From positions 32,205-96,204 of the forward strand of contig JACPQL010000007.1 in NCBI GenBank assembly GCA_016190445.1: 64,000 nucleotides of DNA, read 5' to 3'. Origin of the DNA: Chloroflexota bacterium. GTDB lineage: Bacteria > Chloroflexota > Dehalococcoidia > Lucifugimonadales > JACPQL01. The translations under genes and the position numbers were made by a program. Position 1 is the stretch's first letter; each line of letters begins with the position of its first letter. Under the pieces are notes generated by a model, which saw nothing but the letters and a program-made list of their open reading frames with translations, did no database searches and was not told the DNA's origin. Positions 8,195 to 42,063 of the stretch are shown piece by piece.

Positions 8195-12430
<4,236 letters not shown>

Positions 12431-38618: not shown

Positions 38619-39482
38619 ATGGCCAACATAAGGATAATCCGGCGGCGCATCAGGAGCGTGCAGAACACGGCCAAGATAACCAAGGCCATGCAGATGATCG
38701 CTGCCTCTAAGATGCGCCGTGCCCAGGAGCGGGTGCTGGCCGGGCGGCCCTACTCCAGTAAGATGCAGGAGGTCCTTGCCGACCTGGCGGCCCAGATAGA
38801 GGCGGCCGGAGAGGCACCACACCCCCTTATGGCCCGGCGCCCAGTGCGCAAGACCATGGTCATCCACGTCACCCCAGACCGGGGCATGTGCGGTGGCCTC
38901 AACTCGACGGTGAACCGGCGCACCGGCCAGTTCATCCTCCAGGAGGAGGCGCCGGTAACGCTGGTGACGGTGGGGCGCAAGGGCCGCGACTTCATGGTCC
39001 GCTACGGCAGGGACGTGAAGGCGGTGTTCACCGACCTGGGCGACCGGCCCCGGCTGGCCGACACCCTGCCCATCTCCCACATCGCCATCGAGGACTACAG
39101 CCGCGGCGAGGTGGACCGGGTCTGCATCGCCTACGCCCGGTTCATCAACACCGCCATCCAGACACCGGAGGTGTTGCAGCTCCTGCCGGTAGAGTCGGCG
39201 GAGGTGCCGCCGTCCCAGAGGGTGGGGTACATCTACGAGCCACACGAGCTGGGCGTGCTCAGCGGCCTTCTGCCCAGGTTCGTGGAGATGCAAGTCTATC
39301 ACGCCATCCTGGAGAGCATCGCCAGCGAGCAGTCGGCGCGCATGGTGGCCATGCGCAACGCCACCGACAACGCCAGGGAGATGATAGACAGCCTCACCCT
39401 GGAGCTGAACAAGGCGCGCCAGGACTCCATCACCAGGGAGCTACTGGACATCGTGGGCGGCGTGTCGGCGCTGGAAGGGTAG
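38619..39482 (+). CDS. atpG: ATP synthase F1 subunit gamma
   Basis: IRRRIRSVQNTAKITKAMQMIAASKMRRAQE; SLTLELNKARQDSITRELLDIVGG. Confidence 0.96.
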   Translation: MANIRIIRRRIRSVQNTAKITKAMQMIAASKMRRAQERVLAGRPYSSKMQEVLADLAAQIEAAGEAPHPLMARRPVRKTMVIHVTPDRGMCGGLNSTVNRRTGQFILQEEAPVTLVTVGRKGRDFMVRYGRDVKAVFTDLGDRPRLADTLPISHIAIEDYSRGEVDRVCIAYARFINTAIQTPEVLQLLPVESAEVPPSQRVGYIYEPHELGVLSGLLPRFVEMQVYHAILESIASEQSARMVAMRNATDNAREMIDSLTLELNKARQDSITRELLDIVGGVSALEG

Positions 39483-39485
39483 GTT

Positions 39486-39965
39486 GTGCCGGTGGGAAAG
39501 ATGCTGTGGGGGCGAAGGGGACTGCTATTGGGGGCCAGCGGCGTGGCCCTGGCGGGTGCGCTGGTCTTGGTGGCCTGGCAGCATAGTTGGGGCTCCACCA
39601 GCGCGCCGCTGGAGCCGTTCCGGTCGTTCCAGAACCTGACCGGGTTCTCCAACGAGGAGGTCTGGAGGGCCTACCGTTTTGGGGCGGCAAACCCGGGCGG
39701 TGTGCTCAACTACATCCCCTGCTTCTGCGGCTGCGGCGCGTTCGGACACACAAGCAACCGGGACTGTTATGTTAGTGGCTTCGACGGCCAGGGGAGGCCG
39801 ACGTTTGACCTCCACGCAGCCGGCTGAAACACCTGCGTGGCCATCACCCTTGAGGTGATGCAGCTTCAAGAAAAGGGACTTCCTCTATCCCAGATAAGGG
39901 CATCCATTGACTCCTGGTACGGCGGCCTGGGCCCCAGCACCCAGACTCCCTGGCCGCCCCTGTAG
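39486..39965 (+). CDS. PCYCGC-motif protein, predicted selenoprotein (Sec114 at TGA 39825-39827), 159 aa
   Basis: ...NYIPCFCGCGAFGHTSNRDCYVSGFDGQGRPTFDLHAAG-U-NTCVAITLEVMQLQEKGLPLSQIRASIDSWYGGLGPSTQTPWPPL*; family pattern continues in frame through TGA to TAG at 39963-39965, 24 nt before atpD ATG. Confidence 0.8.
39842..39860 (+). promoter_or_regulatory. Candidate SECIS-like hairpin downstream of TGA in the PCYCGC gene
   Basis: CAUCACC-[CUUGA]-GGUGAUG, perfect 7-bp stem; loop begins 21 nt after UGA; loop G is at position 4, so a weaker match to the bacterial consensus. Confidence 0.45.
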
Positions 39966-41396
<1,431 letters not shown>

Positions 41397-41451: not shown

Positions 41452-41679
41452 ATGACGCAGACAGCGGTCAATACGGCGCAGGAGGCCACGGACATCGCCG
41501 TGGGCTTCTTGAAGCAATACAAGCAGCTCGTGACGCCCGTAAAGGCTCAGCGTGAGGGGGACGAGTGGACGGTCCTGGTGGACGTCGGGGTTTTCAGAAC
41601 CATCATAGCCACCTTCCACATTGACGCCGCCACTGGCGCCATAAAGGACTACGATATACCGACGCCGGCGAGTGGATAG
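41452..41679 (+). CDS. Small alpha/beta protein (75 aa; GvpO/PepSY-like topology) inside atp operon
   Basis: ATDIAVGFLKQYKQLVTPVKAQREGDEWTVLVDVGVFRTIIATFHIDAATGAIKDYDIP. Confidence 0.55.
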   Translation: MTQTAVNTAQEATDIAVGFLKQYKQLVTPVKAQREGDEWTVLVDVGVFRTIIATFHIDAATGAIKDYDIPTPASG

Positions 41680-41682
41680 TGC

Positions 41683-42063
41683 ATGCAAGAGAGGCTGGCA
41701 TTGTACCGTGCCCAGGCTCTCCACTACCTGGAGAACGCCTTTATCGCGCTCCGGCAGGGCGACGTGGAGAAGGCAGGGGAGTTCTTGTGGGGCAGCATGG
41801 CCGAGGCCCTCAAGGCGGTGGCTGCCCACAAAGGAACGACGTTGCGTCAACATCGGGAGATACGGGAGTTCGCTCGTGCTATCGCCAACGAGTTGGGGGA
41901 GAGGGCCCTCTGGGATGCCTACGGCAATGCCGAGCACCTTCACGCTAACTTCTACGAGGTGGAGCTGTCTTTGGAGGACGTGGCGGCTATCGGCGAAAGC
42001 GTGAAAAGAGCGGTAGAGAGACTGCTGGGCCTTGCAGAGGAGCCTTTGCCGGTATCAGGGTAG
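41683..42063 (+). CDS. PaREP1/HEPN-like helical protein inside atp operon
   Basis: [64 protein letters not shown] resembles the PaREP1 helical pattern. Confidence 0.55.

Follow-up and report, generated by a model that had tools for sequence, protein, structure and literature searches.

A selenocysteine (Sec) form of the CYCXC/OS_HP4 family, with a UxxC motif and a PF13798 (PCYCGC) domain, has been described in PMC13188914, which cites Zhang and Gladyshev 2007, and a Sec form with UxxC is also given in PMC9312934. The NCBIfam entry NF041379 carries the name 'CYCXC family (seleno)protein'. OS_HP1 and OS_HP2, though not OS_HP4, appear by name in the 2008 GOS paper. The PCYCGC lipoproteins of Bacillota, such as AOT13_14730 of Parageobacillus thermoglucosidasius (PMC13068155), are extracytoplasmic, mostly have Cys in place of Sec, carry a lipobox and combine CxCGC, a further Cys and a CxxC. 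More generally, in bacterial selenoproteins such as SelD (UxxK), TGA alternates with Cys codons, a hairpin lies past the UGA and the genome carries Sec genes. The first-pass annotation of the DNA analysed here knew of no described Sec form of the PCYCGC family, a view that the papers above overturn; the protein reported here is a new, well-supported instance of it and not a new protein type.

The window, meaning the whole 64,000-nucleotide stretch that was analysed, comes from a Dehalococcoidia (Chloroflexota) assembly of 2.02 Mb in 52 contigs, which is 81% complete. Its PCYCGC gene resembles CYCXC/OS_HP4 in the Pfam family and in the predicted Sec within UxxC, but sits between atpG and atpD, and the protein scores 60.3 bits against NF041379, where a cut-off of at least 90 applies. 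It is therefore assigned to PF13798 without the status of an NF041379 equivalog. Unlike the Bacillota lipoproteins, most of which have Cys there, it has a predicted Sec and a predicted transmembrane anchor, and its gene does not adjoin a metal-binding ABC component as that of AOT13_14730 does. It shares with the Sec/Cys-alternating selenoproteins the alternation, the hairpin past the UGA and the genomic Sec genes, but its hairpin loop lacks a G found in the other TGA forms of the family. Our overall reading, to which we give a probability of roughly 0.85, is that the gene encodes a membrane-anchored Sec-containing PCYCGC protein, for which relatives suggest a copper or redox function. The features of the locus are collected in Table 1.

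Table 1. Coordinates of the PCYCGC gene, its elements and its flanking genes in the window
Feature	Position	Strand	Basis
PCYCGC (PF13798) gene, predicted to contain Sec	39486..39965	+	GTG start; 159 residues if the TGA is Sec; PF13798 match
Shine-Dalgarno-like GGAAGGG	39473..39479	+	6 nt before GTG 39486, overlaps the atpG end; read directly
Predicted N-terminal membrane anchor helix, codons 11-33	39516..39584	+	AlphaFold2 helix H11-33 (low confidence there); hydrophobic sequence
PCFCGC motif, residues 78-83	39717..39734	+	P78 C79 C81 G82 C83 invariant in 38 members
In-frame TGA, predicted Sec at residue 114, first of UxxC (114-117)	39825..39827	+	TGA/TGC/TGT at the same homologue column
SECIS-like hairpin	39843..39859	+	Compensatory changes in 16 Sec forms; no synonymous change vs L008
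atpG, F1 gamma subunit, directly upstream	38619..39482	+	PF00231, 314.5 bits
atpD, F1 beta subunit, directly downstream	39978..41396 (start GTG 39978 or ATG 39990)	+	PF00006, 233.4 bits

The first-pass annotation had described a 113-aa ORF between atpG and atpD that ends at a TGA (39825-39827) and whose frame runs on to a TAG (39963-39965), and both the sequence and the domain matches of the flanking genes bear this out. The frame of 113 codons opens at GTG 39486, 3 nt past the atpG stop, and 45 further codons separate the TGA from the TAG. Read-through would leave 24 nt to the atpD ATG (39990), or 12 nt if atpD starts at GTG 39978; with a stop at the TGA the gap would be about 160 nt, much as had been stated. 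The length of the open tail is not evidence by itself, because 44% of the TGA-ended ORFs of at least 100 aa in this G+C-rich window have one as long. What makes the tail informative is its match to PF13798 positions 111-153, which follow directly on positions 51-107, the part of the profile matched by the half before the TGA. Further along (window 41452-42063), between atpD and an atpC-like ORF at 42032, there are two more small ORFs (75 and 126 aa), the larger of which may, by eye, be a HEPN/PaREP1-type protein. An Rfam scan of the whole window gave no match, and a scan of the window for other TGA read-through motifs gave no second case that was convincing by eye.

By its sequence, the read-through product is a clear PCYCGC member. 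It matches PF13798 over residues 56-157 with 70.9 bits (curated cut-off 25), across the TGA, as expected from the earlier proposal that the family's C-terminal part lies past this codon. NF041379 was matched by all 38 aligned members with an E of 0.001 or better. Invariant among these 38 are P78, C79, C81, G82, C83, C94, H110, U/C114 and C117, together with a GxxTxTP tail. The P-C-x-C-G-C motif, further Cys and C-terminal CxxC that mark a PCYCGC protein are thus found as C79, C81, C83, C94, C/U114 and C117, and the TGA-x-x-Cys of codons 114-117 corresponds to the UxxC of the OS_HP4/CYCXC Sec form. Past the TGA, the window protein keeps UxxC and GPxTxTP. An AlphaFold2 model reached a pLDDT of about 95 over residues 55-159. 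A sequence search of solved structures gave no relative, and a PDB fold search gave no meaningful match (best E = 3).

Whether relatives alternate between TGA and TGC at codon 114, a check proposed in the first-pass annotation, was examined by searching 250 genomes from the order and 393 from the class. Scanning genome contigs with the single protein confirmed no relative, and a first family alignment was too diverse as a query; a closer alignment worked. PCYCGC members were found in 10/250 genomes of the order, where a few weak matches are probably chance, and in 34/393 of the class. At the codon that lines up with the TGA of the window gene, which had been proposed to replace the first Cys of CxxC, relatives carry TGA or TGC/TGT. 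Seventeen distinct TGA forms, including the window gene, come from Dehalococcoidia and Bacillota (the others being L008, L009, L012, L013, L024, L025, L028, L031, L032, L043, L058, L060 on the minus strand, L086, L093, L145 and L160), and all remaining members have Cys, the commoner residue in the family. The sources of the TGA forms include two MAGs, one from Chloroflexi in groundwater (L145) and one from Bacillota (L093), and a cultured Bacillota isolate, Paludifilum halophilum DSM 102817 (L086:4226-4440, NZ_NOWF01000006.1), whose SECIS-like hairpin is fully paired. A tree of 63 members implies at least six switches between Sec and Cys, with many forks, and the placement of L028 and L058, unresolved; the window gene forms a clade with L008 and L009 (support 91) and groups with L008 within it (support 96). 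In L060 (TGA at 11795; G256:C118) an extra codon lies between Sec and Cys, giving UGNIC in place of UxxC, and the hairpin is retained 3 nt further on. On several Dehalococcoidia contigs (L072, L059, L060, L063) two PCYCGC paralogues lie 5-9 kb from each other, close to CcoG-like, cupredoxin or radical SAM genes.

The hairpin begins about 15 nt past the UGA. In the window, 39843-39848 pairs with 39854-39859 around the loop 39849-39853 (CUUGA), and an outer C-G pair lengthens it to 39842-39860. Folded as a single sequence, the 61 nt past the TGA did not stand out from shuffled versions (z = -1.15); it is comparison that supports the hairpin. In a gap-free alignment of 16 TGA forms (stem columns 19-24 with 30-35), 89.6% of stem cells are paired, and the covariation score is 0.494 vs at most 0.124 for slid partners, a value reached in 0/500 shuffles. 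Sixteen stem cells are altered on both sides, and three of the six pairs show two-sided changes (C-G/A-U/G-C; G-C/A-U; G-C/C-G/A-U); the outermost pair, 19-35, is present in just half of the sequences. The mean number of stem pairs is 5.4 of 6 in the first 12 TGA forms vs 2.9 in 27 Cys forms; the 16 TGA forms thus have the hairpin in common, and the Cys forms lack it. Silent sites are also constrained here. When degenerate codons with an identical residue were compared between the window gene and L008 (proteins 59% identical), none of 11 had a synonymous change in the 13 codons past the TGA vs 40/74 elsewhere in the gene (Fisher P = 6e-4). The SECIS hairpin expected of a bacterial selenoprotein, a further proposed check, is thus recognised by covariation; the window's own copy fits less well, being predicted less stable than another fold of those bases (-9.2 vs -15.5 kcal/mol) and having, like L008, a CUUGA loop without the G of the other TGA forms (CGUGA or CGGGA).

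The search for selABCD that had been suggested succeeded in part. The source assembly contains a tRNA-SeC with anticodon TCA, a SelB of 620 aa above the profile cut-off and a SelD that itself has an in-frame TGA at UxxK (MVQEHVRLTTLARCAGUAAK), giving the tRNA-Sec, SelB and SelD called for by a bacterial selenoprotein; no match to SelA was found in it. Among 36 genomes checked, PF03841 was matched in 27 (two only weakly) and tRNA-Sec was found in 29, so that SelA is present in most relatives. The SelA gap is most likely due to the incompleteness of the assembly. The SelD gene (L020:1121-2164, G000:C46) is a selenoprotein gene in its own right, with a strong hairpin past its TGA.

Taken with the alternation, the TGA-only covarying hairpin and the silent-site constraint, this machinery makes it very probable, on comparative sequence grounds, that UGA at codon 114 is decoded as Sec, as the first-pass annotation had proposed. 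The TGA could instead be a true stop that leaves a truncated, pseudogenised PCYCGC protein of 113 residues, as the standard code would have it and as the missing SelA might suggest. However, a tail with UxxC and GPxTxTP is conserved past the TGA, independent genomes retain TGA at exactly this column, silent sites beyond it are constrained and the genome carries Sec machinery, all of which make a stop highly improbable. An error at 39825-39827 for TGC or TGT, raised at first pass as well, would agree with Cys being the commoner residue, but it is contradicted by independent genomes: L008 and L009, from two other families of the same order, have TGA at the same codon and operon place, and many further genomes have it at the codon 114 column. 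We regard such an error as next to impossible.

Five genomes (the source genome, G054, G048, G276 and G272), each from a different family of the class, were found to have the TGA form between atpG and atpD; the distance from atpG to the PCYCGC gene is about 0.8 kb in G272. Within the stretches fetched, no Cys form was found in this position, and the papers searched held no description of a selenoprotein between atpG and atpD. This placement looks new. In the source lineage, a single transcript probably carries the gene together with those of the ATP synthase. That the selenoprotein has become a permanent accessory to the F-type ATP synthase operon in several Dehalococcoidia lineages, co-translated after atpG and coupling ATP synthase assembly or activity to extracytoplasmic redox or copper status, is a speculation that we consider improbable.

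The window gene has only ATP synthase genes as neighbours, and the link with copper comes from relatives. Chloroflexota members repeatedly adjoin a CcoG-like Fer4_5 membrane protein or cupredoxin/COX2-like proteins, and another set of Chloroflexota neighbours comprises TPR, DsbD-like, TlpA-like, ResB and cytochrome c assembly proteins. The Sec form of P. halophilum lies in a copper cluster with SCO1, YtkA-like, DUF1775 (YcnI) and ZnuA genes and a DeoR/NosL-like regulator resembling YcnK. CcoG is a known cupric reductase. Copper import and CuA assembly in Bacillus subtilis involve the products of ycnKJI as well as CtaK (YtkA) with Sco (PMC13344008). The copper/cytochrome-maturation context of the relatives looks new. 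Because of these neighbours we tentatively favour an extracytoplasmic factor, either handling copper or active in thiol/selenol redox chemistry, for the maturation of copper or heme-c proteins. SelB and tRNA-Sec would act on the hairpin to insert Sec at codon 114, giving a membrane-anchored, outward-facing protein with UxxC. Its invariant CxCGC, C94 and (U/C)xxC thiols would probably bind copper, carry out thiol-disulfide exchange or both, and this chemistry would probably serve the maturation of extracytoplasmic copper or heme-c proteins. A somewhat less likely possibility is that the Sec protein is a purely thiol-disulfide, thioredoxin-like reductant, unrelated to copper, which serves cytochrome c maturation or ATP synthase. 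The redox nature of UxxC, the DsbD-like, TlpA-like and ResB genes beside relatives and the atpG-atpD position agree with such a reductant, but copper genes (SCO1, YtkA, DUF1775, cupredoxins) also adjoin relatives, the six invariant thiol/selenol positions are more than a simple CxxC oxidoreductase needs, and there is no match to a thioredoxin-like fold.

The finding places this thiol-rich family, whose confidently predicted domain has no match among solved structures, in a setting of copper and cytochrome maturation, and provides a Sec/Cys pairing open to testing in a cultured species. It also exposes an annotation error that will recur, in which TGA-form PCYCGC genes are cut at the UGA.
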